The translations under genes were made by a program, and so were the position numbers. Below, one piece after another: positions 26,242 through 64,000 of a DNA stretch of 64,000 bases (positions are counted from its first letter, which is position 1; every line of letters begins with the position of its first letter). The notes below the pieces were generated by a model. That model was not told the DNA's origin. It searched no databases and saw nothing but the letters and a program-made list of their open reading frames with translations. Origin of the DNA: Ornithinibacillus sp. 4-3 (GTDB taxonomy: Bacteria > Bacillota > Bacilli > Bacillales > Amphibacillaceae); assembly GCF_040958695.1 (NCBI RefSeq), contig NZ_CP162599.1, positions 344,001 through 408,000 of the forward strand, in the 5' to 3' direction.

Positions 26242-27789
26242 ATGACATATTTATACAAACGCGAACCATTTACAGACTTTACGCTGTCCCAGAACAAAAA
26301 GGAATTTCAAAATACTCTTGAAAAAATCGAAAAAGAGCTAGGTGTGCATCACGATATTTTAATTGATGGAGAACGGATAACAACAATTGATAAAATTACA
26401 TCTTTTAACCCAGCAAATAAATATGAAATTGTTGGCACTGTAGGAAAGGCTGATACAGATCTTGCAGAGACAGCAATCATGTCTGCTAGAAAATCCTTTC
26501 AAGTTTGGAGAGATTGGCAAGTAAAGGATAGGGCAGGCATATTGTTTCGAACAGCAGCGATTATTCGTTATAGAAAACATGAATTTTCCGCTTACCTTGT
26601 CAAAGAGTCAGGAAAATCATGGCAGGAAGCTGATGCAGATGTAGCTCGAGGAATTGACTTTATGGAATATTATGGGAGGCAAATGATTGATTTAGAGGAA
26701 AGAGAAGAAATTAATAGATCTCTGATTAAATACAATCAATACCTTTATCAACCATTAGGGATCGCTGTTACAATTTCTTCAAGTTATTTTCCTTTTTCAA
26801 CTATGGTACAAACTACTGTAGCTCCCCTAGTTACTGGAAACACAGTCATATTAAAACCATCTAGTTCAACACCAATCATAGCTGCGAAATTTGTAGAAGT
26901 GTTAGAAGAAGTTGGAATTCCCAGTGGAGTAATTAGTTTTCTTCCTGGAAGTGGAGAAGAAGTAGGTGATTATCTTGTTAATCATCCTAAAACCAATCTT
27001 ATTATATTTACAGGATCAAGGGATGTAGGAATTCGTATTTGGGAACAAGCTGCAAAGGTACATCCAACACAAGCACATTTAAAACGAGCTATCGTTGAAT
27101 GGGGAGGAAGAGATACGATTATTGTAGATAATGATGTAGATATTGATATGGCTGCTGAAGAACTAATTGCCTCAGCATTTGGATTCTCAGCTCGCAAACG
27201 TTTCACTGGATCTCGCGCGATAATACATCAAGATATTTACAAATCATTATTAGAAAGAGTGATTGACCTTACAAATAAATTAAATGTAGGAGACCCTTTT
27301 TTTCCAGATAACTACATGGGGCCAGTCACCAATCAAAGAGCCTATCTCCATATCATGTCTTATTTGGAAGTCGGAAAAAAAGAAGGACGTTTAGTTGCTG
27401 GAGGTATTGGAGATGATTCTCAAGGCTATTTCGTACGACCAACGATCTTTGCGGATGTTCAACCAGAATCGCGAATTATGCAGGAAGAACTTTTTGGCCC
27501 AGTTATCGTTTTCTGTAAAGCAAATGACTTTGAGCAGGCACTAAGTATCGCAAATAATACAAAATACGGTGTAACGGGCGCGCTTATTACCAATAACCAT
27601 GATCATATGGAACGTGCGAGATATGACTTTCATGTAGAGAATTTATATGTTAATCATAATTGTACGGAGAATGTTTTTGGAAATTATCCATTTGGTAGCT
27701 TCAAATCATCGGGAACAGATTCTAAACTGGGAGAACAAAATTATTTACACCTTCATATGAGAGAGAAGGTTGTGTTGAAGAAGTTGTGA
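26242..27789 (+). CDS. RocA-like aldehyde dehydrogenase homologue lacking the catalytic Cys
   Basis: The 515-residue protein aligns end to end with 1-pyrroline-5-carboxylate dehydrogenase (RocA): REPFTDFT at the N terminus, the cofactor Lys in ILKPSS (Lys205), the base Glu in VEWGG (Glu286), and PFGSFKSSGTDSK near the C terminus. The nucleophile block, normally GQKCSAGSRA, reads ARKRFTGSRA, so Arg320 replaces the catalytic Cys. The oxyanion block PWNF reads SSYF, losing the Asn (Tyr182). Normal aldehyde oxidation is therefore not expected. The frame is intact, which argues against simple decay. It sits behind a sigma-54 promoter and next to a RocR-like activator; a sensing or scaffold role is conceivable but unproved. 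Confidence 0.88.
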   Translation: MTYLYKREPFTDFTLSQNKKEFQNTLEKIEKELGVHHDILIDGERITTIDKITSFNPANKYEIVGTVGKADTDLAETAIMSARKSFQVWRDWQVKDRAGILFRTAAIIRYRKHEFSAYLVKESGKSWQEADADVARGIDFMEYYGRQMIDLEEREEINRSLIKYNQYLYQPLGIAVTISSSYFPFSTMVQTTVAPLVTGNTVILKPSSSTPIIAAKFVEVLEEVGIPSGVISFLPGSGEEVGDYLVNHPKTNLIIFTGSRDVGIRIWEQAAKVHPTQAHLKRAIVEWGGRDTIIVDNDVDIDMAAEELIASAFGFSARKRFTGSRAIIHQDIYKSLLERVIDLTNKLNVGDPFFPDNYMGPVTNQRAYLHIMSYLEVGKKEGRLVAGGIGDDSQGYFVRPTIFADVQPESRIMQEELFGPVIVFCKANDFEQALSIANNTKYGVTGALITNNHDHMERARYDFHVENLYVNHNCTENVFGNYPFGSFKSSGTDSKLGEQNYLHLHMREKVVLKKL

Positions 27790-27946
27790 GGGTAAAAAGT
27801 CATATTGTAGCTTAAAATAGATCATCATGATATGAGAAAATGAATGGTGTTAAGTAAATAATGAGCTTTATTCAGTCATGAAGAACAATGTTGTTAGGAT
27901 ATTTAAGTAACGTCATTAAATATTGGACTATAAGGAGAGGTTCGCA

Positions 27947-28954
27947 GTGAATGAAGTTAGTAAAAATTTACATAAAGATTTAATTGTTATCGACGGTACA
28001 TGCCCGTTAGGTCAAGATGAGAAACATATGTTTAGATGGAAAAAGGGTGGAGTTACTGTAATGGCTCCTACCGTCGCTGTTAATGAGAATGCTCAGGAGA
28101 CAATGTATAAAATAGGAACTTGGTATAAAAGATTTCATACCCATGAATCTCAACTAATGCATATTCGGTCTGTAGATGATATTTATGAGGCAAAACGTTT
28201 AAATAAATTAGGGATTTTGTTTCACTTTCAGAACTCTTTGCCAATAGAACGGAATATAGATCTTCTTGCTATTTATCAAAAATTAGGAGTGCGAATAATT
28301 CAGCTTTGTTACAATCAAAAAAATCATATTGGTGATGGATGTGATGAAAGAACAGACAGTGGATTAAGTGAATTTGGTGTTCAAGCAATAAAAGAAATGA
28401 ATCGTTTAGGAATAGTAGTTGATGTATCACATACAGGATATCAAACAACAATGGAAGCGATTGAAATATCTGAGAAGCCAGTGATTGTAAGTCATGCAAA
28501 TGTACATAAACTTCATCCTGTTGCTAGAAATTTGAAAGATGATCAAATCATTGCTCTAGCCCAAAAAGGTGGAGTTATAGGAATAAATGGATTTCCAGGA
28601 TTTGTATCAAATAAAAAAAATCCAACACTGGATGATTTTGTCGATCATATTGATTATATTGTGGATTTAGTAGGAATCAATCATGTAGCTATAAGTCTCG
28701 ACTTTTATGAAGGTATGTCTAGTATTATGAATGATTCTGAAGCTAATCAAGTCTATAATCAGCAACTTTCTGATGGAAGATGGAAAAAAGAGACTTATCC
28801 TGAACCGCCTTGGAATTACCCTAATGGATTAACATTGCCAGATGAATTTCCTAATTTAACAAAAATATTGTTAGAAAGAGGATATGACGAAGAAGATATT
28901 AGATTAATTATGGGAGAAAATTTTATAAGAGTTTTTAAAGATGTTTGGAATTAA
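27947..28954 (+). CDS. M19 (renal dipeptidase) family protein with altered metal site
   Basis: The 335-residue protein has the M19 barrel with the C-terminal landmarks FGVQAIKEMNRLGIVVDVSH (His162), VSHAN (His183) and a final GENFIRVF. The N-terminal ligand pair HxD reads IDGTCPLG (T18, P20), and the bridging Glu block reads HFQNS (Gln95). Three of the usual five zinc ligands are thus replaced. I recall a subfamily with this Gln, so the protein may bind one metal or do other chemistry. The start GTG 27947 follows AAGGAGAGG. It is followed closely by a binding-protein gene, consistent with one transcript. Confidence 0.85.
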   Translation: MNEVSKNLHKDLIVIDGTCPLGQDEKHMFRWKKGGVTVMAPTVAVNENAQETMYKIGTWYKRFHTHESQLMHIRSVDDIYEAKRLNKLGILFHFQNSLPIERNIDLLAIYQKLGVRIIQLCYNQKNHIGDGCDERTDSGLSEFGVQAIKEMNRLGIVVDVSHTGYQTTMEAIEISEKPVIVSHANVHKLHPVARNLKDDQIIALAQKGGVIGINGFPGFVSNKKNPTLDDFVDHIDYIVDLVGINHVAISLDFYEGMSSIMNDSEANQVYNQQLSDGRWKKETYPEPPWNYPNGLTLPDEFPNLTKILLERGYDEEDIRLIMGENFIRVFKDVWN

Positions 28955-28995
28955 GCTCTAGTTTCTTTGATAACATTAGGAAAGGAGAATTCAAT

Positions 28996-30555
28996 ATGCA
29001 AAATAAAACTATGTTTCTTTTAATGCTAGTAATTACTTTTATAATTTCTGGATGTAGCCAGACTGAAAATCAAGCAACAAATAAACAAAATAATGAACAA
29101 AATTTAAACGTTGCTTTTTCTGGTCAACCTCCATCGCTTGACCCACATATCACAACAGCTACGGAAGCTCTTGAAATTGCAAGGAATATTTTTGAGACCC
29201 TTGTTACATTGAATGAAAATTATGAACCTGTTCCTATGTTGGCAGAGTCGGTTGAAAGCAGTGAAGATGGGAAAGTATACACATTCCATTTGCGTGAAGG
29301 AGTAAATTTCCATAATGGTGAAGAAATGACATCAGAGGATGTTGTTGCTTCGATGAATAGATGGCTGGAAAAAGCCTCTGTAGCTATCACATTTTTACCA
29401 GGAGCAACTTTTGAAGCAGAAGGGTTACATACAGTAGTGTTGAAATTGGAAGAACCTGCAACAGATGTACTGGATATAATGGCTGGAAGAAGTCAATTTC
29501 CTGCTATTATGCCAAAAGATATAATAGATTCTGCCCCTGCTGAAGGTGTTTCAGAAATTGTGGGTACAGGTCCATTCGAGCTTAAGGAGTGGAAGCAAGA
29601 TCAACATATTCATTTAAAGAAATTTGATAATTATTCAATGTTGGATGAAGAACCGAGTGGATTAGCAGGAAGAAAAGAAGTATTTTTCGATAATGTATAT
29701 TTCAAGGTTGTTTCAGATTCTTCTACTAGATTAGCAGGCCTTGAAACAGGGGAATATGATGTTGCTATCCAAATCCCTCATAATAACTTTGAGAAAGTTA
29801 ATAATTTACCAAATGTGAACGTTTACCTTGATTATTCTGGAACAAATAATGTTTACTATAATCGAAAAGAAGGACCTATGGCAAATGAGAAAATGAGACA
29901 AGCAGTGAATATAGCATTAGATCTTGATGAAATTATGTTAGCTGCATTTGCTGATGAAGAATTGTATGAGGTAGATCATAATTATATGAAGCCCGACCAA
30001 ACAAATTGGAACGGTGAATCTGGTAAAGAATCTTTTAATCAAAAGGATACTGAAAGAGCAAAAGAGCTTTTAAAAGAAGCAGAATATAATGGTGAAGAGC
30101 TTATATTGTTAACAAGTAGAACATATGATTATCAATATAATTCTTCAGTAGTATTAAAAGAACAGTTAGAACAGATAGGAGTTAATATTAAATTAGAAGA
30201 TTATGATTGGACAGGGTATCAGGATAGAAGAAATGACTTATCAAAATGGGATCTAGTGTCTGTTGGTGGGCAAGGACTACTTACGACTCCGTCACAATTA
30301 TTAGCATTAGACTCTGCATTTGCTAGTGGTTCAGATCATCCAAAAATCACTGAACTTTTAAAGTTAATAAGAACTGCTGAAACTCAGGATAAAGCAAGAG
30401 AGCATTGGGATGAACTACAAGGGTTTCTGTGGAATGAATATGTACCAATTACAATTTATGGTCATCAAAATTCAATTGTAGGTACAACTAGTAAATTGGA
30501 AGACTTATCTGTTTTGCAGGGTCCGATATTTTGGAATACTAGAATGGCAGAATAG
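28996..30555 (+). CDS. Family-5 peptide-type solute-binding lipoprotein (SBP 1)
   Basis: A 519-residue lipoprotein with lipobox FIISGCS and the family-5 (OppA/DppA/NikA) binding fold: QPPSLDPHITTATEALEIARNIFETL, FHLREGVNFHNGEEMTSEDVVASMNRW, and GTGPFELKEW. Such proteins capture short peptides or similar ligands outside the cell. The start ATG 28996 follows AAAGGAG. It lies 41 bp after an M19 gene and before another M19 gene, which suggests a dipeptide-type ligand. No permease or ATPase is adjacent. Confidence 0.9.
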   Translation: MQNKTMFLLMLVITFIISGCSQTENQATNKQNNEQNLNVAFSGQPPSLDPHITTATEALEIARNIFETLVTLNENYEPVPMLAESVESSEDGKVYTFHLREGVNFHNGEEMTSEDVVASMNRWLEKASVAITFLPGATFEAEGLHTVVLKLEEPATDVLDIMAGRSQFPAIMPKDIIDSAPAEGVSEIVGTGPFELKEWKQDQHIHLKKFDNYSMLDEEPSGLAGRKEVFFDNVYFKVVSDSSTRLAGLETGEYDVAIQIPHNNFEKVNNLPNVNVYLDYSGTNNVYYNRKEGPMANEKMRQAVNIALDLDEIMLAAFADEELYEVDHNYMKPDQTNWNGESGKESFNQKDTERAKELLKEAEYNGEELILLTSRTYDYQYNSSVVLKEQLEQIGVNIKLEDYDWTGYQDRRNDLSKWDLVSVGGQGLLTTPSQLLALDSAFASGSDHPKITELLKLIRTAETQDKAREHWDELQGFLWNEYVPITIYGHQNSIVGTTSKLEDLSVLQGPIFWNTRMAE

Positions 30556-30577
30556 AATATTTTTAACTTCAAATGAT

Positions 30578-30691: not shown

Positions 30692-31705
30692 ATGAATTTA
30701 TTAGAAAAGGAATCTAAGTTATTACATAAAAAAACTTTACTAGCCGAACTTCATTCAGATTATCCAGTAGACCTTATTCGTAGAAAACGATCTGGTGAAG
30801 AAAATGTATTAAGAAGAATATGGTTTCCTAAAATAGCAGAGGGAGGTGTCAATGTATCTAATTTTATAGTGGGTGGCGATACATTGGCATCAGGTAAAAC
30901 AGTAGAAGATGTTTTAGAGGCTATTTCTTATTTAGACTCGGAAATAAGTTTAGATAAGCAAATAGAAATTTCAAAAACAGTAAATGAGATTAGAGACAAC
31001 TTTTCAAAAGGGAAGACTTCAATAATTTTAGGTCTAGAAGGTGTTACCCCTATAGGAACAAAAATAACAAATTTACAGGCTTTTTATAAGCTGGGACTTA
31101 GAATTGCTCAGTTAACTTGGAATAAAAGAAATATGGCTGCTGATGGATTCGCTGAAAGTCGAACAAGAGGAGGGCTAACACATTTCGGAGTGGAGCTAGT
31201 GAAAGAAATGAATAGATTAGGAATTATGATAGACATGTCCCATCTTTCTCCCCAAGGAGTGTCAGATGTTTTGCAGACATCCAGAGATCCTGTGATTTGT
31301 TCACACTCAAATTGCCTTAGTCTATGTAACCATCCTCGTAATATAGATGATGAAACAATAAAAAAGATAGCTGATAAAGGTGGATTAGTTGGAGTTGCTT
31401 TTTATCCTAAATATTTACGTAATGACTGGCAACATACTAGTTTAGATGATGTAATTACACATATAGATTATCTAAAATCGCTTGTTGGTGAAGATTATAT
31501 AGGTTTAGGTCCAGATTTTATTCATTTTTCACCAGAGCTAATTCATGAATCACCTATCCCAAATTATCCTGAGGGTCTTCAAGAGGTTGATCAATTACCC
31601 AATTTGACTGTGGAGTTAGTGAGAAGAGGTTATACGGAAACTTCTATTGAAAAGATATTTGGTGCTAATTTTCTTAGAATTGCAGAAGAGATTTGGGGAG
31701 AATGA
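30692..31705 (+). CDS. M19 dipeptidase with intact metal ligands
   Basis: A 337-residue M19 dipeptidase. All zinc-ligand positions are present: His21 and Asp23 in ELHSDYP, Glu116 in LGLEG, His184 in DMSHLS and His205 in CSHSN. The C terminus has GANFLRI. The family splits dipeptides, including ones with a C-terminal D-residue, and some members act on modified dipeptides. No signal peptide is present, so it acts in the cytoplasm after uptake. It contrasts with the altered homologue at 27947-28954. An IS4 element is inserted 14 bp after its stop, with the target duplication starting 5 bp after it. Confidence 0.92.
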   Translation: MNLLEKESKLLHKKTLLAELHSDYPVDLIRRKRSGEENVLRRIWFPKIAEGGVNVSNFIVGGDTLASGKTVEDVLEAISYLDSEISLDKQIEISKTVNEIRDNFSKGKTSIILGLEGVTPIGTKITNLQAFYKLGLRIAQLTWNKRNMAADGFAESRTRGGLTHFGVELVKEMNRLGIMIDMSHLSPQGVSDVLQTSRDPVICSHSNCLSLCNHPRNIDDETIKKIADKGGLVGVAFYPKYLRNDWQHTSLDDVITHIDYLKSLVGEDYIGLGPDFIHFSPELIHESPIPNYPEGLQEVDQLPNLTVELVRRGYTETSIEKIFGANFLRIAEEIWGE

Positions 31706-31719
31706 CATATAAATAATTT

Positions 31720-33122
31720 CACTAGCGTCGCATTAAAAAACAAAAGTATAAAGTAAAATACTGAATTTTCTTTAACTATATTTTTCCATAAAAAAATCCT
31801 TTATAATGGGGTTTGGTAGTAAACTATCCAAATCCAATATAAAGGACATACACATGGATAAGTTTACACGAAAAACATCATTTGAACAATGGTTTTCACC
31901 GATTTCGACTGAACTTTTTAATGAAATGGTTGGAAACTTTCAATTAGATTACTATACAAAGAAGCTTTATATGGCGCCATTCATGAAGTTACTGCTGTTT
32001 GCGCAACTTCATGGTACCGAAAGTTTACGGGCGTTAGCTGACGCTGTTTTTTCAGATGATCTTCAAAAAGCAGTTGGGTTTGAATCCATTAGCTTTTCAC
32101 AATTAGGCAGAAGACTAAATGAAGTGCCTACTTCTTTTTTTGAAGCCATCTTCTTAAATCTAGTAGCGAAAATTCATGAAAAAACAGACTTTCAGCACAG
32201 AAGAAAAACGTCTACACCTTGGATGTTGATTGATTCTACCACATTACCTTTAAATTTAACGAATCACAGATGGGCTGAATTCCGAAAAACAAAGTCTGGC
32301 GTAAAGCTTCATCTGCGCCTTGTATTTATGGAAAAAGGCCTTTCTTATCCGGACAAAGCAGTCATGACGAACGCAATAGAACACGACCGTGGACAGTTAG
32401 AAGTATTTGTTGACGATAAAGAATGCATGTACGTTTTTGACCGTGGCTACTTGGATTACGAGCGTTTCGATCGCATGACAGATGACGGCTATTTCTTTGT
32501 ATCACGTTTAAGGAAAAACGCTGTCGTTCGGGTAATTAAAACACTTGAAGTTCCATCAAACTCATCTATTTTATCAGATGAAATGGTCGTTCTCGGATCA
32601 ACTCAAAACCGAACAGAACACGTTTTTCGTAAAATAAAAGTACTGGATGATAAAGGGAAAGAACTCACGTTAATTTCAAATCGGTTTGACATTAGCGCAG
32701 TTGAAATCGCCGATGTTTACAAGTCCAGATGGGCAATCGAACTCTTTTTCAAATGGATGAAACAACATCTCTCAATCAAAAAGTTCTACGGGCATAGCGA
32801 ACAAGCAGTCCATAATCAAGTGTACGTAGCGATGATTGTCTATTGTTTAAACGTACTCGCGCAGCTAAGCACAAACAGCTCGCGGACTTATCTCCAAATC
32901 AGTCGTTATTTAAAAGCCGCAATTTGGAAATCTGCCCATATTTGGATTCGTAAAATCAAAGGAAAAGGTGTCCCGTAAAACTTTTTAATTTTTGTCGCAC
33001 TCGTCTTTGGCTATAGTCAAAAAAATGGATGTTTACTACCTTTGTTTAGGTGCTTTCAATTTTTTCTTTAAAACCAGAAATGTAGTTCAGAACATTCTGC
33101 ATTTATTTATGCGACGCTAGTG
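31720..33122 (+). mobile_element. IS4-family insertion sequence with 9-bp target duplication
   Basis: A complete element of 1403 bp. Terminal inverted repeats begin CACTAGCGTCGCAT at both ends (14 bp perfect). The sequence AAATAATTT stands directly outside both ends (31711-31719 and 33123-33131), a clean 9-bp target duplication. One transposase gene fills the element. It separates the intact M19 gene from its probable terminator at 33305. The intact ends and duplication suggest a recent insertion. Confidence 0.93.
31854..32978 (+). CDS. IS4-family transposase
   Basis: A 374-residue DDE transposase with an IS4-type N-terminal domain and the catalytic blocks LIDSTTLPL (first Asp), VFDRGYLDYERF (second Asp, the Y-2 region) and the Y-(2)-R-(3)-E-(6)-K signature YKSRWAIELFFKWMKQ (Glu). 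The start ATG 31854 has AAAGGA upstream; the 31806 frame opening is not needed. The frame is uninterrupted, so the element may be active. Confidence 0.93.
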   Translation: MDKFTRKTSFEQWFSPISTELFNEMVGNFQLDYYTKKLYMAPFMKLLLFAQLHGTESLRALADAVFSDDLQKAVGFESISFSQLGRRLNEVPTSFFEAIFLNLVAKIHEKTDFQHRRKTSTPWMLIDSTTLPLNLTNHRWAEFRKTKSGVKLHLRLVFMEKGLSYPDKAVMTNAIEHDRGQLEVFVDDKECMYVFDRGYLDYERFDRMTDDGYFFVSRLRKNAVVRVIKTLEVPSNSSILSDEMVVLGSTQNRTEHVFRKIKVLDDKGKELTLISNRFDISAVEIADVYKSRWAIELFFKWMKQHLSIKKFYGHSEQAVHNQVYVAMIVYCLNVLAQLSTNSSRTYLQISRYLKAAIWKSAHIWIRKIKGKGVP

Positions 33123-33575: not shown

Positions 33576-35171
33576 ATGAGGAATAAAATAATAGGATTAC
33601 TTTTTTTAGTGATGTCCGTGTTATTAATTGTTGCGTGTAGTTCTAAATCAAATGATGATTCAAAGGCAGATGATTCTAGTGAAGGAGGGGAAACAGAAAC
33701 GGGCACAGAAACGGGTGGTGAATTGAAGATTGCTGTATCAGCACAACCACCATCATTAGATGCACATATTAGTTCTTCTTCAGCTTCATTAGATATAGGA
33801 CGGATGATCTTTGAGACATTGATGACATTAAATGAAGACCATCAATCAGTACCTATGTTAGCTGAGTCAATAGAGGAAAGTGAAGACGGAAAAACATATA
33901 CTTTTAAATTACGTGAAGGAATCAAATTCCACAATGGAGAGGAAATGATTGCTGAAGATGTGGAAGCATCTATGAATCGTTGGTTGGAAAATTCCCCAAG
34001 AGCATTATTACTTTTAGATCATGCTAATTTCGAAGCAAAGGATAAATATGTAGTCGAATTAACATTAGAAAAACGTGTTTCAGATGTGTTAGATATAATG
34101 GCAGGACAGGGACAATTTGCAGCTATTATGCCAAAAGAGCAAATAGATACTGCAACTCCAGAAGGTGTATCAGAGATTATTGGTACTGGACCATTTAAAT
34201 ATGAGGACTGGAGGCAAGATCAATATGTTCATTTAGTAAAATTTGATGATTACCAATCTCGAGATGAAGAACCGAGTGGATATGCGGGACGTAAAGAAGC
34301 GTTGGTAGATGATTTATATTACTATTTTGTACCGGATTCTTCCACGCGAGTAGCTGGGCTTCAAACTGGAGAATATGATATTGCAGAGCAGATACCTCAA
34401 GATAGTTATGAACGACTTGAAGAGATGGATGGAGTTCAAACACATGTTTATTATTTTGGAACATTGAATATGTTTTATAACAAAAAAGAAGGAATCATGT
34501 CAGATCCCAAAATGAGACAAGCAGTAAATATTGCTTTAAATATGGACGAGATTATGTTAGCCAGTTATGCAAATGAAAATTTATTTAAGGTTGATCATAA
34601 CTACATGAACCCTGATTCGGTTGGATGGGCAAGTGATGCAGGTAAGGATTTTTATAATCAAAATGATATAGAGAAAGCAAAAGAGCTATTAGCAGAATCA
34701 GGCTATAACGGTGAAAAGGTTAGATTATTAACAACACGTGATTACGATGATTATTATAGTGCAGCAGTTGTTGTCCAAGAACAATTAGAGCAAATAGGTA
34801 TGAATGTGGATTTAGAAGTATTTGATTTAGCAACATTATATGATAATAGAGCGGAACCAGATAGATGGGAAATGTTCTTTGGAGGGGTAGGCTATAATAC
34901 CTCGCCGTCACAATTACTAGCTATCAACCCAACATATCCTGGTTGGACAGAAGATCCTAGAATCACAGAATTATTAGCTGAAATGGGAGCTTCTACTTCA
35001 CAGGAAGAAGCAAAACAACATTGGGATGAATTACATGAGTTTCTATGGGCTGAATATTTACCAGCAAGTATATTAGGGCATTATACGAATATTATAGCAG
35101 TGTCTGATAAAGTAGAGAATTTGACCATTTTTCAAGCAACTGTGCCATGGAATACAAGGAAAGCAAAGTAA
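33576..35171 (+). CDS. Family-5 peptide-type solute-binding lipoprotein (SBP 2)
   Basis: A 531-residue lipoprotein with lipobox LLIVACSS, an acidic linker rich in Asp/Ser/Glu/Thr, and the family-5 core (AQPPSLDAHIS, FKLREGIKFHNGEEM, GTGPFKYEDW, MRQAVNIALNMDEIM). It is very close to SBP 1 and SBP 3, so these are local paralogues. GAGAGGAG precedes the ATG. The next gene, 34 bp on, is an S9 peptidase; that pairing suggests uptake of oligopeptides that are then cut inside the cell. Confidence 0.9.
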   Translation: MRNKIIGLLFLVMSVLLIVACSSKSNDDSKADDSSEGGETETGTETGGELKIAVSAQPPSLDAHISSSSASLDIGRMIFETLMTLNEDHQSVPMLAESIEESEDGKTYTFKLREGIKFHNGEEMIAEDVEASMNRWLENSPRALLLLDHANFEAKDKYVVELTLEKRVSDVLDIMAGQGQFAAIMPKEQIDTATPEGVSEIIGTGPFKYEDWRQDQYVHLVKFDDYQSRDEEPSGYAGRKEALVDDLYYYFVPDSSTRVAGLQTGEYDIAEQIPQDSYERLEEMDGVQTHVYYFGTLNMFYNKKEGIMSDPKMRQAVNIALNMDEIMLASYANENLFKVDHNYMNPDSVGWASDAGKDFYNQNDIEKAKELLAESGYNGEKVRLLTTRDYDDYYSAAVVVQEQLEQIGMNVDLEVFDLATLYDNRAEPDRWEMFFGGVGYNTSPSQLLAINPTYPGWTEDPRITELLAEMGASTSQEEAKQHWDELHEFLWAEYLPASILGHYTNIIAVSDKVENLTIFQATVPWNTRKAK

Positions 35172-35205
35172 TACTTAAATAATTTATCAAGGAAGGTTGA
35201 GTTTA

Positions 35206-49163: not shown

Positions 49164-49290
49164 TAGATTCAACCCCTATTCATTGAATTAAAAAGGTAAA
49201 CCTTATTTCTAGTTAGTAAAAAAAGAAAAGCTAGTCCGTATAGGAGTGAGAAACTTTTATGATAGCGCTTACTTTTTGTGCGCTTTTTAA

Positions 49291-51738: not shown

Positions 51739-51760
51739 TTTATTCACACTCCGGTAATTT

Positions 51761-52517: not shown

Positions 52518-54014
<1,497 letters not shown>

Positions 54015-54018
<4 letters not shown>

Positions 54019-55171: not shown

Positions 55172-56794
55172 ATGGATATTAAAAATATAAAAGCTCCATT
55201 ATTGATTGTTTTGTTAATGATGTTCTTTATTATCATCGGGTGTAGCAAAAAAACAGAAGAAACCATTACAGAAGAAAATGAAAAAGAGGATGAAGTAACG
55301 GAGGAAACAAAAGAAGATACAACAACATCTGAAAATTCCGTATTAAATATTGCTATAGATACAACACCGCCTACACTTGACCAACCAATCAGCACATCGG
55401 CATCTACCCGAGATGTTTCTAGATTAATATACGAAAGTCTTGTAACAACGGATGCAGATTTTAAACCAATCCCAATGTTAGCAGAATCTATTGATATTAG
55501 TGATGATAACAAAGTCTATACCTTTCATTTAAGAAAAGGCATCAAATTTCATAATGGAGAAGAAATGATTGCCGAAGACGTGATTGCTTCTATGAAGCGC
55601 TGGGAAGAAAAAACGGCTTTATCAGGAGAAATATTCAATGGAGCAACATGGGAAGAACAGGATGAATATACGGTTGTATTAACATTAACAAATGCTTCCC
55701 CACTTACACTAGATACCATCGCTACCTCAAAGCATGCCCCAGCTATAATGCCGAAAGAAATTGTGGAATCAGCTCCAGCAGAAGGGGTTAACGAATATAT
55801 TGGGACTGGTCCTTATAAACTGACGGAATGGAAAGAAGACCAGTATATTCATTTTACGAAGAATGAGGATTATTTGACTTTAGAAACAGAAACTAACGGG
55901 TTAGGTGGGAAAAAGGAAGCTTTGATAGAAGATATATATTTTCGCCTTGTACCAGATAGTTCTACTCGATTAGCTGGCATATTATCAGGAGAATATGATT
56001 TTGCATATGGAATACCCCAAGATAATTATGATCAATTGATCAATTCAGATAGTGTAGAGCCAGTTCTTGTTCCAGGGTCGAATACAATTATTAAATTTAA
56101 TAATGTAGAAGGAATTGTTTCAGATTTTGAATTTCGAGAAATCATCAATACAGCTTTAGATTATGAACAGATTATGATGGCAGCTTTCGCCAGTGAAGAA
56201 TTTTATGAGCTTGATTCTGGTTATATGCATAAGGATGTGACAGCATGGGCTAGTCAAGCAGGAAGTGAGTACCATAACATTAATGATCCAGAAAAGGCGA
56301 AACAGATGTTAGAGGATTATGGCTATAACGGAGAAGAAGTTGTTATCATGACCACTCGAGATTTCCAATGGATGTACAATATTGGTGTTGCTGTTGATGA
56401 ACAATTGAAAAGACTAGGTATTCAGTCGAGACTAGATGTTTATGATTATCCAACCTTTAGTGATACTGCAAATAAAACTGATTTATGGGATATCGAAATA
56501 CAAGGTGCCACTATGGTAAGTACACCACCACAATTAATTACATTAAGCACAACCTGGTCAGGAGGTGTAAACGACCCTCATATTCCAGAAAGTTTAAAAG
56601 CGATGGAAACTGCTTCTGACCTAGAAGATGCTTATCAAATATGGGATGAACTGCAACAATACGTATGGGAAGAGCATCTGCCTATCATTAACTTAGGGCA
56701 TAGTTACGCATTATATGGAATAAACAAAAAGGTGCAGGGGATTGAAATGTCTACTGTCGGACCTGTGCTGTGGAATGCGACAGTAAGTGAATAA
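55172..56794 (+). CDS. Family-5 peptide-type solute-binding lipoprotein (SBP 6)
   Basis: A 540-residue lipoprotein with lipobox FIIIGCSK, a long Glu/Thr-rich linker and the family core (TTPPTLDQPISTSASTRDVSRLIYESL, FHLRKGIKFHNGEEM, GTGPYKLTEW). GGAGGG directly abuts the ATG at 55172, which is too close. The in-frame ATT at 55178 has ideal 6-nt spacing and would give MKNIKAPLL; either could be used. It is the first gene before a FAD oxidoreductase. Confidence 0.88.
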   Translation: MDIKNIKAPLLIVLLMMFFIIIGCSKKTEETITEENEKEDEVTEETKEDTTTSENSVLNIAIDTTPPTLDQPISTSASTRDVSRLIYESLVTTDADFKPIPMLAESIDISDDNKVYTFHLRKGIKFHNGEEMIAEDVIASMKRWEEKTALSGEIFNGATWEEQDEYTVVLTLTNASPLTLDTIATSKHAPAIMPKEIVESAPAEGVNEYIGTGPYKLTEWKEDQYIHFTKNEDYLTLETETNGLGGKKEALIEDIYFRLVPDSSTRLAGILSGEYDFAYGIPQDNYDQLINSDSVEPVLVPGSNTIIKFNNVEGIVSDFEFREIINTALDYEQIMMAAFASEEFYELDSGYMHKDVTAWASQAGSEYHNINDPEKAKQMLEDYGYNGEEVVIMTTRDFQWMYNIGVAVDEQLKRLGIQSRLDVYDYPTFSDTANKTDLWDIEIQGATMVSTPPQLITLSTTWSGGVNDPHIPESLKAMETASDLEDAYQIWDELQQYVWEEHLPIINLGHSYALYGINKKVQGIEMSTVGPVLWNATVSE

Positions 56795-56900: not shown

Positions 56901-58067
56901 ATGGCAGCAGACGTCATTGTTATTGGTGGAGGAATTATTGGATCATCAATAACTTATCATTTAGCTCGTGATGGTGTAAATGTAAAACAATTAGAAAAAG
57001 GGAGTATTGCCAATCAGGGAGCTGCATCTAGAGTAAGTGCTGGTGGAATACGGCTAAATAATCGTGACCCTCGTGAGCTCGATTTAGCAAAGGAGAGCAT
57101 TAAACGCTGGGAATCTCTTGAAGAAGAATTAGAAGCTGATCTGGAATACGGATCGGCAGGCCAAATCATGTTATTTGATGATCGCTACATTATGGATGCT
57201 CTTGAAAAACAGGTAAAAGAAGATCTAGATAATGGGATAGAAGCTAGAATTGTAACTGGTGAAGAATTAAATGAATTAGTTCCATCTCTGTCTCCTTCTA
57301 TTAAGAAAGCAATATATTATCCGAGTGGTGGTCAAGGAAATGGATTATTAACAACAGTTGCTTATACATCTAAAGCACGTCGCTTAGGTGCGGAGATTAT
57401 CACTGGCGTTGAAGTATACTCTATTGTTAAGGAAAATAATAAGGTTGTTGGCGTAGAAACAAGTGCAGGATTTATGAGTGCGAATATCGTTATTAATGCG
57501 GCTGGAGCATGGGCACCTGTATTACATGAAACATTAGGACTCTCACTTCCTCAAGTAACTCCTTATATTCATCAAATGTCTGCAACAGATCCAGCACCTT
57601 TATCAGTTTTGCCAGGACCAACAATTAGTTCTAGAGGAACTAAAATATCTCTCAAACAAACCATCGATGGGCGAATCCGGGCCGGTGGTGGCTATGCAGC
57701 AAAACCAGGTCCGAAAGAATATACAGGCCGTTTTAACGAGATAGATCTTGAAAAACAACGAAAAACGGTGCTATCAATTATTCCATCCATAGAAGAATAT
57801 GATGTTGATTTTACCTATTATGGAATAGAAGCGCATTGTGTTGATAATATTCCCATATTAGGACCAATTCCTGAAGTAGAAGGATATTTAATAGCGGCAG
57901 GGTTTAGTGGGCATGGATTTACCCTATCTCCTGCAATAGGGATGGTTATTGCTGAAGTAGCTCAAGGTAAACAACCTTCCATTTCAATTGATGCGTTTAG
58001 AATTGCCCGCTCCTATGATAATAGAAAAGAAAGTGAAATAGACACTGTACGTAATGTTCCAGGTTGA
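56901..58067 (+). CDS. FAD-dependent amino-acid-type oxidoreductase (DAO family)
   Basis: A 388-residue flavoprotein with N-terminal Rossmann motif VIVIGGGIIGSSITYHLA and the family C-terminal blocks TYYGIEAHCVDNIPILGPI and AAGFSGHGFTLSPAIGMVIAE. It resembles sarcosine/D-amino-acid/glycine oxidases and related dehydrogenases. The substrate is unknown; an N-methyl or D-amino acid released from imported ligands would fit the context. A ribosome site precedes ATG 56901. It follows SBP 6 and is followed by two hairpins. Confidence 0.88.
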   Translation: MAADVIVIGGGIIGSSITYHLARDGVNVKQLEKGSIANQGAASRVSAGGIRLNNRDPRELDLAKESIKRWESLEEELEADLEYGSAGQIMLFDDRYIMDALEKQVKEDLDNGIEARIVTGEELNELVPSLSPSIKKAIYYPSGGQGNGLLTTVAYTSKARRLGAEIITGVEVYSIVKENNKVVGVETSAGFMSANIVINAAGAWAPVLHETLGLSLPQVTPYIHQMSATDPAPLSVLPGPTISSRGTKISLKQTIDGRIRAGGGYAAKPGPKEYTGRFNEIDLEKQRKTVLSIIPSIEEYDVDFTYYGIEAHCVDNIPILGPIPEVEGYLIAAGFSGHGFTLSPAIGMVIAEVAQGKQPSISIDAFRIARSYDNRKESEIDTVRNVPG

Positions 58068-58362: not shown

Positions 58363-58380
58363 TTGGCATGATTATTGCAT
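58363..58380 (+). promoter_or_regulatory. Sigma-54 (-24/-12) promoter
   Basis: TTGGCATGATTATTGCAT has GG at 58365-58366 and GC at 58377-58378, the exact 12-bp distance, with a TTGCAT -12 block. It matches the element at 26148-26165 at 17 of 18 positions. It should drive the FluG-like gene and perhaps SBP 7. Confidence 0.88.
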
Positions 58381-58440: not shown

Positions 58441-58590
58441 TTGGAGGTGGTGCATTGTAAAATTGAAATTTCTAATACCATCAATATGTAAAAATGGCTT
58501 TTTGAATAGATACTTAAGTTATTTTTTCTATTGAATACTCAGCTTATTTTCTATTAATAAAATTTTTATAATTTGAAAGGATTGAATCTA

Positions 58591-59805
58591 ATGACACTAA
58601 ATTTTGATCACTTACCTTTTTTTGACCACCATACTCATCTACTATTTACTGATAAAACGAAAATTACAGCTAAAGAGCTATCAATGAATTTTCTTCATGG
58701 TTATCAGGACATGGATCCTTTTGAGCAAGGATTAGATGCTACATATGCCCATGGTAGAGCTTCTGAGAGACAGCTAGAAAATATTGAGAATTTGGGTGTA
58801 GTAAAAACAGTTGTTAATTATATGTCTCAGTTTTTAGGTTGTGAACCCACGATTGAAGCAGTTGTTGAAGCAAGGAATGAGCGTATTAAAGATGTAGAAG
58901 GATTAAAAAAATATACAAAAGATCTTTATGAGGATCAAAATATTGTTGGAACATTAGTAGACTGGCCCTTCAATGAAGATGTAGAGAATGAAAGCGTATT
59001 CCCGGTGCCTGTATATAGAATGTACAATTACGAGGATGTGTATTTCGAACAACTAAAAACAGCCTCTTCATTTGAAGAATTAATGACCGTACTTACTAAA
59101 AGTGTTCGAAAAGCTATCAATGAAGATGGTTATATTGCTTTAAAATGTCATGTTGCAGAACATTACACAATGGCAGTGCGTAATGTTACTGATGAAGAAG
59201 CGGCAATTCAGTTTGTTGCTGCTCAAAATGGAGATTACACGGCGCTTGAAAATGTTTATTTTGCGGCTTTCCGTAATCTAATGTTCGAAGCTCAAGACTT
59301 AGATGTTCCTATTCATATTCATGTTGGATCTACCGGGTTTAATCGTCAGTCAGCAGCATTTGTTCCAGAAATGGATCCATTTCAGTTTGCTCCATTTCTT
59401 GTCTCAGATCCACAATATGTAAAAACAAAAATTGTTCTCCTGCATCAAGGGTATCCATATACTCGTCATGCTTCATTAATGGCTTATTCGTTTCCTAATG
59501 TCTATGTTGACATGAGCTGGACACTTCCTTGGGCATCGTCTATTTTTTGCAGTTGTATAGAAGATGTTTTAAGTACAGCACCTCATACTAAAATATTTTT
59601 CGGTACAGGTCAGCATGGACTGCCAGAGATTGCATGGACTGCTTCAAAAGTGGCCAAAACCTGCCTAGCAGAAGTGATGAACAAAATGGTTTCTTTAAAT
59701 TTAATGGCTCCTAGTCAAGCCGAAGAAACTGCAAAAATGCTTTTATACAAAAATGCGGAAGCTCTATATGATTCAAAAAAGAAAGCTTTAAGTAATATCC
59801 GATAA
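58591..59805 (+). CDS. FluG-like amidohydrolase with a changed catalytic Asp
   Basis: A 404-residue amidohydrolase_2 protein similar to the N-terminal domain of FluG and related enzymes. HxH is in FDHHTHL, a Lys/His pair in LKCHVAEH, His in HIHVG and LLHQGYPYTR, and VYVDMSW follows. The usual Asp block (S/T-D-x-H) reads FFGTGQHGLPE, with Gly in the Asp position. The family splits amides or decarboxylates; without this Asp ordinary hydrolysis is doubtful. The start ATG 58591 follows AAAGGA. It lies behind a sigma-54 promoter and next to SBP 7. Confidence 0.82.
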   Translation: MTLNFDHLPFFDHHTHLLFTDKTKITAKELSMNFLHGYQDMDPFEQGLDATYAHGRASERQLENIENLGVVKTVVNYMSQFLGCEPTIEAVVEARNERIKDVEGLKKYTKDLYEDQNIVGTLVDWPFNEDVENESVFPVPVYRMYNYEDVYFEQLKTASSFEELMTVLTKSVRKAINEDGYIALKCHVAEHYTMAVRNVTDEEAAIQFVAAQNGDYTALENVYFAAFRNLMFEAQDLDVPIHIHVGSTGFNRQSAAFVPEMDPFQFAPFLVSDPQYVKTKIVLLHQGYPYTRHASLMAYSFPNVYVDMSWTLPWASSIFCSCIEDVLSTAPHTKIFFGTGQHGLPEIAWTASKVAKTCLAEVMNKMVSLNLMAPSQAEETAKMLLYKNAEALYDSKKKALSNIR

Positions 59806-59822
59806 GAAATTTCTGAAAATGG

Positions 59823-59850: not shown

Positions 59851-59959
59851 TCTTCACTAAAATAAAAATTCTCCAAATATTTTTACTAGTTTGCTATAAA
59901 AGTTCAATGATACGTATAAGAATCAAAACTAAAAAATTAAACATCTAGGGGGATAATTC

Positions 59960-61540
59960 ATGTATAAAAGGAATCTTGGATTTTTTTTGATAATGTTAAT
60001 TGTAAGTATTGCTCTTATTGGGTGTGCCGATAATACAGATAACTCCAACCAAGAAGAGGGAAATAATAATGATAATGAGGTTAAAGGAGGACAATTAGAT
60101 TTTGCATATCATGTTCAACCAGCAACATTAGATCCTCATCTCACTGTAAATGATGCGACTAGGGATATTTCTGCACATATTTTTGAGGCGCTTCTGACGT
60201 TAGATACAAGCTTAGAAGTACAGCCAATGCTAGCGGAATCTTATGAATTAAGTGATGATCGAAAAATGATTACTTTCAATTTACGTCAAGGTGTTAAGTT
60301 TCATAATGGGGAAGAAATGACAGCTGATGATGTTATCGCATCCATGGAGAGATGGAAAACTTTATCCTCTCAAGCGGAAACATACCTAGAAGAAATGACA
60401 TTTGAAAAGGAAGATGATTATACAGTAATTGCTCATATTCCAAATCCTACTATACAAGATCTATATATTTTAGCAGACACTGCACAATTTGCAGCAATAA
60501 TGCCAGAGGAAATAATAGAGAATGCAAGTATTGAAGGCGTGGAAGACATGATTGGAACTGGCCCATATAAGTTCGTAGAATGGAAAACAGATAATTATAT
60601 TCATGTTGAAAAATTCGATGATTATCAATCTCGTAGTGAAGAACCTAATGGCATGTCTGGACAGAAAAATGCTTATTTGGATGATATATATTTTCATTTA
60701 ATTACTGATCCCTCTACTAGAATCGCAGGTTTGCAATCGGGTGATTATGACATTGCTAGTGATATTCCACCAGATAGTGCATTGAATTTCTTAAATGATG
60801 ATAATTTCCAAACTGCTGTAGATTTTAGTTCATTTACACCTATTAACTTCAATAAAAAAGAAGGGGTGTTTAAGGATAAAAAGATTCGCCAAGCTGCTAA
60901 CGCTGCTATAAATGTTGAAGATTTGCTAGAGGCAGCTTATGTTAATGAAGAATTTTATGAGCTAGACCACGCATTAGTAAAGAAAGAACAAACGGGCTGG
61001 TACAGTGATGTAGGTAGTGATGTATACAATACGTATGATCCTGAATTAGCAAAAGAGTTATTAGATGAAGCAGGATATGACGGTGAAGAAGTGGTTATTA
61101 TTACTTCTCGTGAATATGCAAATTACTATAATATGTCTGTAGTTGTTAAAGAACAATTAGAAGCAGTAGGCATGAAGGTAAAGCTTGATGTAACTGATTG
61201 GGCAAGTGTTAGTCAGAAACGTGAAGACCCAGAGAAATTTGATATATTTTTTAATAGATTTATGATTAGGCCTTTACCTACTCAATATTTATTCATGAGT
61301 AATGAATGGTTTGGATGGACAGATAGTGAAGAGCTTGAAGAATTATCTGAGAAGATTTTATATGCTGATTCTCTTGAGGAAGCACAAAGCTATACAGATG
61401 AACTTCATGAAGTGTATTGGGATTACATTCCAATCCTTAAACCTGGAAATACTGCATTAATTACTACGTATACTAAAAATGTCAAAGGGTTTGATTATAT
61501 GTCGAATCCTATTTTATGGAATGTGCAACTAGAGGAATAA
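59960..61540 (+). CDS. Family-5 peptide-type solute-binding lipoprotein (SBP 7)
   Basis: A 526-residue lipoprotein with lipobox IALIGCAD and the family core (VQPATLDPHLTVNDATRDISAHIFEAL, FNLRQGVKFHNGEEM, GTGPYKFVEW). It groups with SBP 4 and SBP 5 in its middle region. GGGGG precedes the ATG. It is between the FluG-like gene and a sigma-54 activator gene on the same strand. Confidence 0.9.
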   Translation: MYKRNLGFFLIMLIVSIALIGCADNTDNSNQEEGNNNDNEVKGGQLDFAYHVQPATLDPHLTVNDATRDISAHIFEALLTLDTSLEVQPMLAESYELSDDRKMITFNLRQGVKFHNGEEMTADDVIASMERWKTLSSQAETYLEEMTFEKEDDYTVIAHIPNPTIQDLYILADTAQFAAIMPEEIIENASIEGVEDMIGTGPYKFVEWKTDNYIHVEKFDDYQSRSEEPNGMSGQKNAYLDDIYFHLITDPSTRIAGLQSGDYDIASDIPPDSALNFLNDDNFQTAVDFSSFTPINFNKKEGVFKDKKIRQAANAAINVEDLLEAAYVNEEFYELDHALVKKEQTGWYSDVGSDVYNTYDPELAKELLDEAGYDGEEVVIITSREYANYYNMSVVVKEQLEAVGMKVKLDVTDWASVSQKREDPEKFDIFFNRFMIRPLPTQYLFMSNEWFGWTDSEELEELSEKILYADSLEEAQSYTDELHEVYWDYIPILKPGNTALITTYTKNVKGFDYMSNPILWNVQLEE

Positions 61541-61780
61541 GTACTGGCAAAACAAGTAACTTTTTCAAATTATATATTTAAGGTTAAGAATAGCGAAGAA
61601 CAAACGTTTTTCGTTATTCTTGACGTTTACACGAGAAATTTTGTTGTTCGAGGTTCAGCTTTTTAAGTAGTCATATCGTGTATACTTAGGTTGTCTATAA
61701 ATAAGATGATAATGGTATGTTTATGGCGTTTTACGGGAAGAAACTTTTGGCTAGTGACAACAATACGAGGAGTGCGGTGA

Positions 61781-63850
61781 ATGAAAATATATACAATTGG
61801 ACTTGTTTGTCCAGATGAAAAAACTAGATTCCATATCACTAATTTTTTGCAAATCGTTTTTAGAGGCTGGCTAAATGTTGAAGGAGTCAGTCTTCAGCAT
61901 ATTGATAACATAAGAAGAATTAATGCCAAAATAGTCTTATTTAGCGCCCCAGAATTAGTCAATCAAGCTAAAGAGTTTGGAATGATTAATCGAGATACAG
62001 AAGTAATTATTGCCAAACGCATGGTGCACCACCATTCTTTTGAGCAGCTACTAGAATTATATAAAATAAAGGATGGAACAAATATTTATGTTAGTAATAT
62101 CAATTATGAAGCTGAGTTATCTTCTATTAAGCTATTAAAAAGCTTGAAGCTAAACCATTTAAATTACATTCCATATCATCAAGCAAATAAAGCCAAAGAT
62201 AGTGAAGTTCATATATGCGTCACGTTTGGAAACCCAAACGCTCCAACGGATGTAGCAAGAATTCTTGACTTAGGTCCACGTCAAATTGAATATAGTACAA
62301 TTGTAGAAATTGCACAAAGACTTGGAATTTCTGACTACAATATCCATGCCGCAAACAATTCCGCATACATTAAGTCAATTATGAAATCCTCGGACCTTGG
62401 TAATTTTGATGAGTTAATTGAACGAAGTAAATATCTTAATGCTATTTTAGGTTATTCACGAGATGGGATATTATTATTAGATAAGGATTTCAAGATTATT
62501 TGCTTGAATGAAGAAGCTGCAACGATTATAGCATCACAACAAAATTATGATATTTATGGAAAAGAACTGTCTAAATTGATTCCTACTATGGAAGTAATAC
62601 TTTCTGAAAACAATACACAAAAAAATATCCAGTGGAAAAATATAAGAATAAATGGGAAGGTCTACGCTTGTTCAATTGAACATTGGAGAGGAAGAAATGA
62701 TGAATACTTGTTAATTATTCACAGAAAAAAAGAAGAAATTCAACTAGATGAGAATAATGATAAAGGGTTCTATTCCCGATATGAATTTAGTGATATTATT
62801 ACCCAAAATCAGAATATGAAAGAACTGAAGGAGTTTGCTTCTGCAGTAGCAAAAGGTAATTATAATATAGTTATTTATGGGGAAACAGGCACTGGTAAAG
62901 AATTATTTGCGCATTCTATTCACAATGCATCGCTCAGGAGAGGGCGTCCTTTTATTTTTACCAATGTTACAGCATTACCAGATAGTTTAATTGAGAGTGA
63001 ACTGTTTGGATATGAAGAAGGGGCGTTTACGGGTGCAAAAAAGGGAGGAAAGCCAGGATTATTTGAGCTTGCTAATGGAGGAACCATATTTTTGGACGAA
63101 ATTGGTGACCTTTCTCTTTCCTTACAAACAAAATTATTACGAGTAATACAAGAGCGTAGGGTGCAAAGAGTAGGGGGTACCCGGGTTATTTCGCTTGATG
63201 TGAGAATCATTGCTGCAACGAATCGTAATTTATTAGAAATGTGTGCAGAAGGTACCTTTCGAAAGGATTTATATTATCGACTTCATGTAGTACCAATACA
63301 TATTCCGCCACTTCGAGAGCGGAAAGACGATATCCCTTTGCTGATGAATTACTTTTTAAGAGATAATGGTATTGATATAACACTTCTAACACCAAGACTG
63401 TTAAATTATTTGCATGAATATGAATGGGCTGGTAACACGAGGGAATTAGAAAACTTTTGTCAGTATATTACTAGCTTAGTAGATGTTTTTGGGGAAGATC
63501 CAGGAAAGATTGAGCATAAAGGTTTTGACTTCTTACAAGAACGACTAGAGAGCTTCAAAAGATTATTACCGCAGCCAAGTAATTTGGGAATACTTTATCA
63601 GCAGAACCAGGACTATGACCAAGATTTTATTAATATATTACAAATACTGAATCAGGCAGCAAACAACGGGGAAACTATGAGCAGGAATAAAGTGTACGAA
63701 TCTTTAAAAAGTCATCATCCACTTTCCTTACAGCAAACCAGAGATAGATTACAGAAAATGGCAAACAAAGGACTTGTTGTTTCGGGTAAAACAAAGCAAG
63801 GTACCCATATTACAGAAAAAGGGAAAGACTATTTATTTGGGCGAAAATAA
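61781..63850 (+). CDS. Sigma-54 activator with unusual sensor and winged-helix C terminus
   Basis: A 689-residue enhancer-binding protein. The N-terminal 210 residues form a sensor I do not recognise; its start (MKIYTIGLVCPDEKTRFHI) and the VHICVTFGNPNAPTDVARIL stretch recall no standard receiver domain. A PAS-like domain is at about 217-315. The AAA+ domain has Walker A GETGTGKE (367-374) and GAFTGA (414-419), so it can act on sigma-54. The C terminus is not the usual Fis helix; it looks like a winged helix (RNKVYESLKSHHPL, then VVSGKTKQGTHITEKG). It may activate the promoter at 58363 or others. Confidence 0.86.
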   Translation: MKIYTIGLVCPDEKTRFHITNFLQIVFRGWLNVEGVSLQHIDNIRRINAKIVLFSAPELVNQAKEFGMINRDTEVIIAKRMVHHHSFEQLLELYKIKDGTNIYVSNINYEAELSSIKLLKSLKLNHLNYIPYHQANKAKDSEVHICVTFGNPNAPTDVARILDLGPRQIEYSTIVEIAQRLGISDYNIHAANNSAYIKSIMKSSDLGNFDELIERSKYLNAILGYSRDGILLLDKDFKIICLNEEAATIIASQQNYDIYGKELSKLIPTMEVILSENNTQKNIQWKNIRINGKVYACSIEHWRGRNDEYLLIIHRKKEEIQLDENNDKGFYSRYEFSDIITQNQNMKELKEFASAVAKGNYNIVIYGETGTGKELFAHSIHNASLRRGRPFIFTNVTALPDSLIESELFGYEEGAFTGAKKGGKPGLFELANGGTIFLDEIGDLSLSLQTKLLRVIQERRVQRVGGTRVISLDVRIIAATNRNLLEMCAEGTFRKDLYYRLHVVPIHIPPLRERKDDIPLLMNYFLRDNGIDITLLTPRLLNYLHEYEWAGNTRELENFCQYITSLVDVFGEDPGKIEHKGFDFLQERLESFKRLLPQPSNLGILYQQNQDYDQDFINILQILNQAANNGETMSRNKVYESLKSHHPLSLQQTRDRLQKMANKGLVVSGKTKQGTHITEKGKDYLFGRK

Positions 63851-63960
63851 TGATGGTAAAATAATTTAGTACCCTAGCGAAACATTCTAAGAACTATAAA
63901 CTTGATTTACTGATGAATTTATCGGAGAATAATTTTAGTAGTGATTTTGGGGGTATACAA

Positions 63961-64000
63961 GTGAAAAAGATAATAATACTTTTATTTCTAGTATTGGCTG
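63961..64000 (+). CDS. Start of a secreted protein or lipoprotein, probably another SBP (partial)
   Basis: GTG 63961, with GGGGG eight bases upstream, encodes MKKIIILLFLVLA before the window ends. This is the start of a signal peptide. In this setting an eighth solute-binding lipoprotein is likely, but only 13 codons are visible. Confidence 0.5.
   Translation, partial: MKKIIILLFLVLA

Follow-up and report, generated by a model that had tools for sequence, protein, structure and literature searches.

Ninety-two paralogous family-5 binding proteins of Ornithinibacillus sp. 4-3 and the single DppBCDF-type translocator that they may share

What does a bacterium do with receptors of an importer that are encoded without any importer beside them? 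The question is raised by a 64,000-nucleotide stretch of the chromosome of Ornithinibacillus sp. 4-3 (the window, positions 344,001-408,000 of a genome that is a single contig of 3,694,176 bases), which holds seven complete genes for solute-binding protein (SBP) lipoproteins of family 5 between window positions 28945 and 61540. All seven match the PF00496 profile above its curated cut-off in a Pfam scan (E-values from 3.2e-64 to 1.5e-77); PF00496 is the sole Pfam match of each at an E-value of 0.001, and none belongs to the TctC/Bug family of receptors of the tripartite tricarboxylate transporters (TTT). A Pfam scan of 27 of the 29 open reading frames (ORFs) of at least 120 amino acids listed from window position 26242 to the end, the two left out being antisense to SBP genes, found no Opp/Dpp permease or ATPase. 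Nor is one encoded directly outside the window, as a genome-wide search places the closest matches to the OppC_N permease domain at genome positions 182,482 and 466,851 and returns no match to the oligo_HPY ATPase domain between 181,182 and 769,242. The first-pass annotation of this DNA had described seven complete Opp/Dpp-type SBPs without a permease or ATPase, and both statements hold; the eighth SBP that it suspected at the edge is absent, since the last gene encodes a sigma-54 activator and the nearest SBP gene past the window starts at genome position 437,389, approximately 29 kb beyond its end. It is proposed here that the seven are part of a set of 92 paralogous family-5 SBPs, many of them linked in cassettes to enzymes, which judging from sequence comparisons probably share one ATP-binding cassette (ABC) translocator, encoded by a DppBCDF operon at 2.61 Mb.

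The size of the set becomes apparent from the whole genome (3.69 Mb), which has 103 matches to PF00496 over the cut-off as opposed to nine OppC_N permease and 19 oligo_HPY ATPase matches. In a maximum-likelihood tree of the 103 SBPs (quick search), 92 including all seven from the window form one clade and the other 11, referred to as divergent, lie across a branch with a support of 100. A profile built from ten clade members separates the same two groups, giving approximately 414 bits or more for the 92, of which the lowest is a truncated one, and 211 bits or less for the 11. The median pairwise identity over all 103 proteins is 41% and the highest is 81%, which rules out a duplication in the assembly, and the mean identity of the 11 divergent SBPs to the rest is 20-26%. 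Nine of the 11 lie at permease genes and the other two are closest to one of those nine. The lipobox cysteine pattern, judged by a pattern of our own and not by a dedicated signal-peptide predictor, is matched by 90 of the 92 clade members, the exceptions being the truncated gene and one with WGC. The clade genes are scattered over the chromosome; 32 of them lie in the interval 3.0-3.5 Mb, and ten are packed into the densest 38 kb of the genome compared to seven in the stretch of the window. In base composition they resemble other genes (36.2% versus 35.8% G+C), and this measure lends no support to a recent origin as foreign DNA.

Such numbers are not ordinary for the family. A first look at PF00496 gave 107 candidates in this genome, which yielded the 103 matches, as against 1-32 candidates in 99 relatives and no more than 58 in any of 397 further genomes sampled from the class; among 40 of the genomes behind the 80 operon loci described below the highest count is 69, in the 7.1 Mb genome of Brevibacillus reuszeri, all figures for the comparison genomes being first-look candidates whose scoring is incomplete. 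The class maximum of 58 belongs to a 6.7 Mb genome (G474) with one clade SBP. This genome and two others of the same genus (G465 and G449; family f65, genus g116) have, together with Brevibacillus reuszeri, 52-69 first-look candidates each, which may represent another expansion; G474, the only one of them that was checked, has the single clade member just mentioned.

The genome contains ten DppB/DppC pairs. Nine have a divergent SBP beside them, and the tenth belongs to a complete DppBCDF-type operon at genome positions 2,613,349-2,617,292 which has no SBP directly adjoining it. None of the 92 clade SBPs directly adjoins a BCDF set, and a self-contained operon of clade SBP and BCDF is thus not found in this genome. 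These counts cover the surroundings of all PF00496, OppC_N and oligo_HPY matches, and a pair that lacks OppC_N and lies far from any SBP or oligo_HPY gene would escape them. A search for permease operons without a binding protein elsewhere in the genome, suggested with the first-pass annotation, has one complete answer, with the reservation that the operon lacks an SBP only in its immediate vicinity: further upstream on the same strand lie an M20 gene, an insertion sequence on the opposite strand and then three clade SBPs. The 2.61 Mb DppB is 34-43% identical to the other nine DppB of this bacterium, and a whole-genome search detected no further own DppB above 44% identity at an E-value of 1e-80 or better. 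Elsewhere in the genome, a set of SBP, DppB and DppC genes at 464084-467690 has no oligo_HPY ATPase genes beside it and a lone DppD/DppF ATPase pair is located at 2590719-2592757, 2.1 Mb away; the two may belong together.

The connection between the clade and the operon is seen in other genomes. Eighty loci were compared, namely the best 80 of 356 from other genomes, chosen by the likeness of their DppB, with some genomes appearing twice. Their DppB are 50-77% identical to the 2.61 Mb DppB (median 66% over 78 DppB), and the nearest named relatives among them, at 77%, are those of Pseudogracilibacillus auburnensis and a Sporosarcina. BCDF is directly adjoined by a clade SBP in 62 of these loci and has one within three genes in 14 more, which amounts to 76 of 80. 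Of the remaining four, one (L150) has a divergent SBP and three (L101, L106 and L158) have none within three genes, a clade SBP being found four genes away in both L101 and L106. When the SBPs of the relatives are placed in a FastTree tree of 179 proteins, from which these four loci were excluded, all 76 are interspersed with the 92 and separate from the 11, and own and foreign SBPs intermix to the extent that at least 15 changes are forced by the starred branches. Apart from the 2.61 Mb DppBCDF, nothing in this genome closely matches the operons that carry a clade SBP elsewhere. The arginine of the DppB scoop motif (R42 in Escherichia coli) is absent from the 2.61 Mb DppB and kept in one of the 78 DppB of relatives; it was rejected as a mark of the pair, as the other nine own DppB lack it as well.

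The two components also occur together. One hundred genomes, this one and 99 relatives, were searched with the DppB and with the ten-member profile of the clade. A DppB of at least 62% identity is present in eight of them, and clade SBPs that reach at least 575 bits occur in exactly these eight. Ten genomes follow in the ranking by DppB score, at 48-50% identity, and it is they that have SBPs of 373-453 bits, probably a sister group of the clade. The top 18 genomes by DppB score are thus exactly the 18 with clade or sister SBPs, and the other 82 have no SBP at the cut-off used. The number of clade copies is 92 in Ornithinibacillus sp. 4-3, 12 in a second genome (G093) which has one DppB of 71% identity, two in a third (G032) and a single one in each of the remaining five of the eight. 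The only other genome of the same genus that was searched has no clade SBP, its best match reaching 219 bits with all candidates scored. Ten full-length matches of 459-560 bits are present in the actinobacterium Nesterenkonia sedimenti, where several lie around a single DppBCD-type operon and some broken copies accompany them; the pattern of many SBPs therefore occurs at a smaller scale in a distant bacterium. The suggestion made at first pass that the SBPs feed one shared transporter encoded elsewhere gains support from the single matching operon and from the agreement in the same 18 of 100 genomes.

Many of the SBP genes have enzyme genes as neighbours. Those near the window SBPs are two M19 peptidases, an S9 peptidase, a flavin adenine dinucleotide (FAD) oxidase of the DAO family, Amidohydro_2 and Amidohydro_1 enzymes and a nitrilase, in addition to a DUF2848 protein and two NHL proteins, and the Pfam scan bears out the identities that had been read from the sequence. 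In the genome as a whole, 62 of the 92 clade SBPs have a same-strand non-SBP gene within 300 bp, 28 are in tandem with another clade SBP and 81 have one or the other. Pfam was run on 135 of the 138 adjacent genes, omitting one that spans two pieces and two copies of one transposase, and the 25 commonest families were tallied: M20 (13 genes), Amidohydro_3 and Amidohydro_1 (seven each), S9 (five), M81, DAO and AAT (four each) and beta-lactamase (three) recur, as do, with two each, M19, gamma-glutamyltranspeptidase, creatininase, histidinol dehydrogenase, nitrilase, DUF1028 and S-Me-THD. The corresponding tally for 135 control genes, taken at random from 232 that lie three or more genes away, gives M20 three, Amidohydro_3 two and DAO two, and its 25 commonest families do not include S9, M81 or AAT; the controls are shorter on average (35,388 residues in total versus 50,487 in the 137 adjacent genes with a reference). 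Of the 355 pairs of SBPs with at least 50% identity and a distance of more than 12 kb, 27 have a neighbour family in common, compared to a mean of 10.2 in permutations, 4 of 2000 of which reached this value, the pairs not being independent.

What these proteins bind is suggested by the enzymes and by the fold. The predicted structure of the first window SBP, the one of the seven that was modelled, has the family-5 fold (mean predicted local distance difference test, pLDDT, of 86.6) with a TM-score of 0.83 to chain A of 8vdx, and its six best fold matches include this unassigned Bordetella SBP, AppA and the agropinic-acid protein AgaA. In E. coli DppA, residues D436 and R383 are described as holding the amino and carboxyl ends of the dipeptide (PMC12136057). 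An aspartate at the D436 position is found in none of the 92 clade members (one has a gap) and in none of the 76 SBPs of relatives, valine being commonest; its loss was rejected as a mark of the clade, since it is absent from all 11 divergent SBPs too. The R383 column is an alignment gap in all rows, and an arginine at position 384 of the protein encoded from window position 42578 is kept in 86 of the 92 clade members, 49 of the 76 relatives and none of the 11. The loop is hard to align, which makes the evidence from these residues weak. Mainly because of the neighbouring enzymes, and to a lesser degree because of the missing aspartate, it may be guessed that the ligands are a varied group of amides, N-acyl amino acids, opines, amino-acid-derived carboxylates and similar compounds rather than plain dipeptides.

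In the proposed mechanism each clade SBP would capture its own ligand outside the membrane, and the loaded SBP would dock on the 2.61 Mb DppBCDF translocator and hand the ligand over; for the many SBPs that are encoded together with one or two cytosolic enzymes (M20, M19, S9, M81, amidohydrolase, FAD oxidase and others), these would then start its breakdown. The docking of all 92 on one translocator, the transport and the ligands are what we infer from this evidence, and sharing by all 92 is extended from their kinship, so that some may dock elsewhere or nowhere. Several observations weigh against this proposal. The 80 loci were selected for their DppB. Three genomes without such an SBP (G086, G063 and G077) have a DppB of 48-50% identity, with weaker scores, and in the co-occurrence the cut-offs were set by the author and no more than 14 SBP candidates per genome were scored. 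One of the 92 clade SBPs has a stop inside the match and another is truncated, and for 30 of the 92 no non-SBP gene lies on the same strand within 300 bp. No support was obtained for the idea that given SBP-enzyme pairings are kept from this genome to other genera (2 of 81, with a shuffled mean of 3.1). The exchangeable cassettes of the first-pass annotation are therefore upheld only in part, in so far as similar SBPs of this genome share neighbour families, but not as pairings that are kept between genera.

An alternative is promiscuous docking, with the 92 SBPs using several of the ten Opp/Dpp permease pairs, nine of which also have an SBP of their own. The presence of ten pairs and the fact that one fold is common to family-5 SBPs with many ligands would allow for this; however, the clade accompanies one type of DppB in other genomes, the other nine DppB are 34-43% identical to that of the 2.61 Mb operon and the SBP beside each of their pairs is a divergent one, which makes promiscuous docking unlikely. 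It could also be argued that the function of many of the 92 is sensing or the holding of a ligand and not import. Roles of this kind are among those proposed for orphan TTT receptors (PMC5994714), and some of the SBP genes adjoin regulators, which are a sigma-54 activator and a GntR protein according to Pfam and LysR and PucR types as judged by reading the sequence. The recurrent neighbours are nevertheless cytosolic catabolic enzymes which need the ligand inside the cell, and histidine-kinase domains, found in three of the 135 controls, are not among the 25 families listed for the adjacent genes, where fewer than three could hide. A sensory or ligand-holding role for many of the 92 is accordingly regarded as quite improbable.

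A different kind of explanation holds that the expansion is mostly an accumulation by horizontal transfer or driven by insertion sequences and of little use to the cell. It would account for the lack of clade SBPs in the only other genome of the genus that was searched, for the intermixing of own SBPs with those of other genera in the tree and for the transposase genes that adjoin some SBPs. Yet only one of the 92 genes has an internal stop and only one is truncated, the divergence between the SBPs is old, 60 columns are conserved across the clade and the base composition does not set the genes apart, so that accumulation without use appears very improbable indeed. Sharing of the 2.61 Mb DppBCDF by the clade is thus retained as the preferred reading. 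There is a reasonable case that one translocator serves about 90 SBPs and that the diet has been widened by adding receptor-enzyme cassettes, never a new pump.

The arrangement of the window around these genes, together with the 2.61 Mb operon, is given in Table 1; gene calls are naive ORFs and the start codons are uncertain. The stretch under study begins at window position 26242 with an aldehyde dehydrogenase gene, and three genes with domains of the threonine-biosynthesis type as well as queT are interspersed in it. The DDE_Tnp_1 transposase of the window has a second copy at genome positions 2619679-2620851, between the three clade SBPs and the M20-DppBCDF genes, and both copies adjoin clade SBPs. 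The rve/HTH transposase is presumably of the IS3 type, and its insertion has probably cut the nitrilase gene, because the Pfam match of the latter begins only at position 31 of the profile and the transposase ORF begins 26 bases upstream.

Table 1. Genes and sites of the window, in window coordinates, and of the 2.61 Mb operon, in genome coordinates
Feature	Position	Strand	Basis
M19 dipeptidase-family enzyme, neighbour of SBP 1	27923..28954	+	Pfam
Clade SBP 1, PF00496 lipoprotein, flanked by two M19 genes	28945..30555	+	Pfam, tree
Second M19 dipeptidase-family enzyme, neighbour of SBP 1	30692..31705	+	Pfam
Transposase DDE_Tnp_1	31806..32978	+	Pfam
Clade SBP 2	33576..35171	+	Pfam, tree
S9 prolyl-oligopeptidase-family enzyme, neighbour of SBP 2	35197..36984	+	Pfam
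Clade SBP 3, without a same-strand enzyme gene directly adjoining	42578..44161	+	Pfam, tree
Amidohydro_1 enzyme, downstream of SBPs 5 and 4	44276..45517	-	Pfam
Clade SBP 4	45853..47442	-	Pfam, tree
Clade SBP 5	47592..49172	-	Pfam, tree
NHL-repeat protein, in same-strand group of SBPs 4 and 5	49291..50133	-	Pfam
Second NHL-repeat protein, group of SBPs 4 and 5	50194..51015	-	Pfam
DUF2848 protein, group of SBPs 4 and 5; ORF start probably too far upstream	51049..51867	-	Pfam
Carbon-nitrogen hydrolase (nitrilase family); match begins at profile position 31 of 256	51761..52492	-	Pfam
Transposase with rve and helix-turn-helix (HTH) domains, just upstream of nitrilase	52518..53942	-	Pfam
GntR/FCD regulator heading the group of SBPs 4 and 5	54015..54647	-	Pfam
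Clade SBP 6	55172..56794	+	Pfam, tree
DAO-family FAD oxidase, neighbour of SBP 6	56901..58067	+	Pfam
Sigma-54 (-24/-12)-like site upstream of SBP 7 cassette	58364..58379	+	pattern search
Amidohydro_2 enzyme, neighbour of SBP 7	58573..59805	+	Pfam
Clade SBP 7	59960..61540	+	Pfam, tree
Sigma-54 activator, last gene of SBP 7 group	61781..63850	+	Pfam
DppF	genome 2613349-2614377	-	2.61 Mb operon
DppD	genome 2614370-2615383	-	2.61 Mb operon
DppC	genome 2615429-2616325	-	2.61 Mb operon
DppB	genome 2616342-2617292	-	2.61 Mb operon

The window contains the rpoN (sigma-54) gene as well as two of the three strong matches to sigma-54 activators in the genome (23205-26008, 61781-63850). There is no support for an overall surplus of sigma-54 sites in the window, where the 35 found compare with a mean of 24.5 in 100 shuffles, four of which reached this number. 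A strict pattern, written after two of its sites had been seen, has eight matches in 0.80 Mb, five inside ORFs, which cover 85%, and three intergenic. The intergenic sites precede the aldehyde dehydrogenase gene at window position 26242, the group of Amidohydro_2, SBP and activator genes at window position 58573 and, at 3.42 Mb, a histidinol dehydrogenase-like gene that is followed by an SBP. Each of the three lies beside or within a gene group with a sigma-54 activator, and these activators are the three strong matches of the genome.

The set makes it possible to ask experimentally how one ABC translocator serves dozens of competing receptors and what an SBP needs in order to dock. Ready material for this is provided by 92 paralogues of approximately 41% identity; 14 of the 60 columns conserved across them are common to at most one of the 11 divergent SBPs. 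Residues retained in paralogues whose ligands presumably differ are candidate docking sites for a shared translocator. The neighbouring enzymes in turn supply guesses at the ligands for a large family of unassigned SBPs, and, should the guess made above be right, labels like 'peptide-binding protein' would be misleading for many of these.

No account of a comparable expansion of family-5 ABC SBPs was found, as judged from search listings, in the open-licence literature, a coverage outside which most subscription papers fall. The closest likeness is to the orphan TTT (Bug) receptors, of which PMC5994714 gives 79-181 in Bordetella, with four membrane components at most, and 434 in Rhodoplanes, a shared membrane component being one proposed explanation for them. 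Both cases have tens to hundreds of paralogous SBP genes with few membrane parts; in contrast to the TTT receptors, which belong to Gram-negative bacteria, the set described here consists of ABC family-5 lipoproteins with one matching ABC translocator and many enzyme neighbours, in a bacterium whose nearest named relatives by DppB are Bacillaceae. Several family-5 SBPs per DppBCDF are also seen in Pseudomonas aeruginosa, where mutants and complementation associate DppA1-A5 with one DppBCDF and one of the SBP genes lies apart (PMC4206461). There the five SBPs serve the uptake of di- and tripeptides, whereas the 92 of the present clade lack the aspartate that holds the amino end in E. coli DppA, and their sharing is predicted from sequence. 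E. coli DppABCDF (NC_000913) is alike in the make-up of BCDF and in the SBP fold, the model of SBP 1 giving TM-scores of 0.70-0.80 to the DppA chains 1dpp, 1dpe and 8z1z; it differs in having one SBP, in which D436 is present. The opine-binding proteins AgaA (6hlx) and AccA are among the closest solved relatives by sequence profile and fold, and their ligands are non-peptide or modified amino acids, compounds that would be candidate ligands of the clade; the identity is only approximately 20-24%. To our knowledge, about 90 SBPs per translocator would be the highest receptor-to-translocator ratio of any ABC importer. On balance, and by analogy, the 92 SBPs would be the ABC counterpart of the TTT/Bug receptor expansion.

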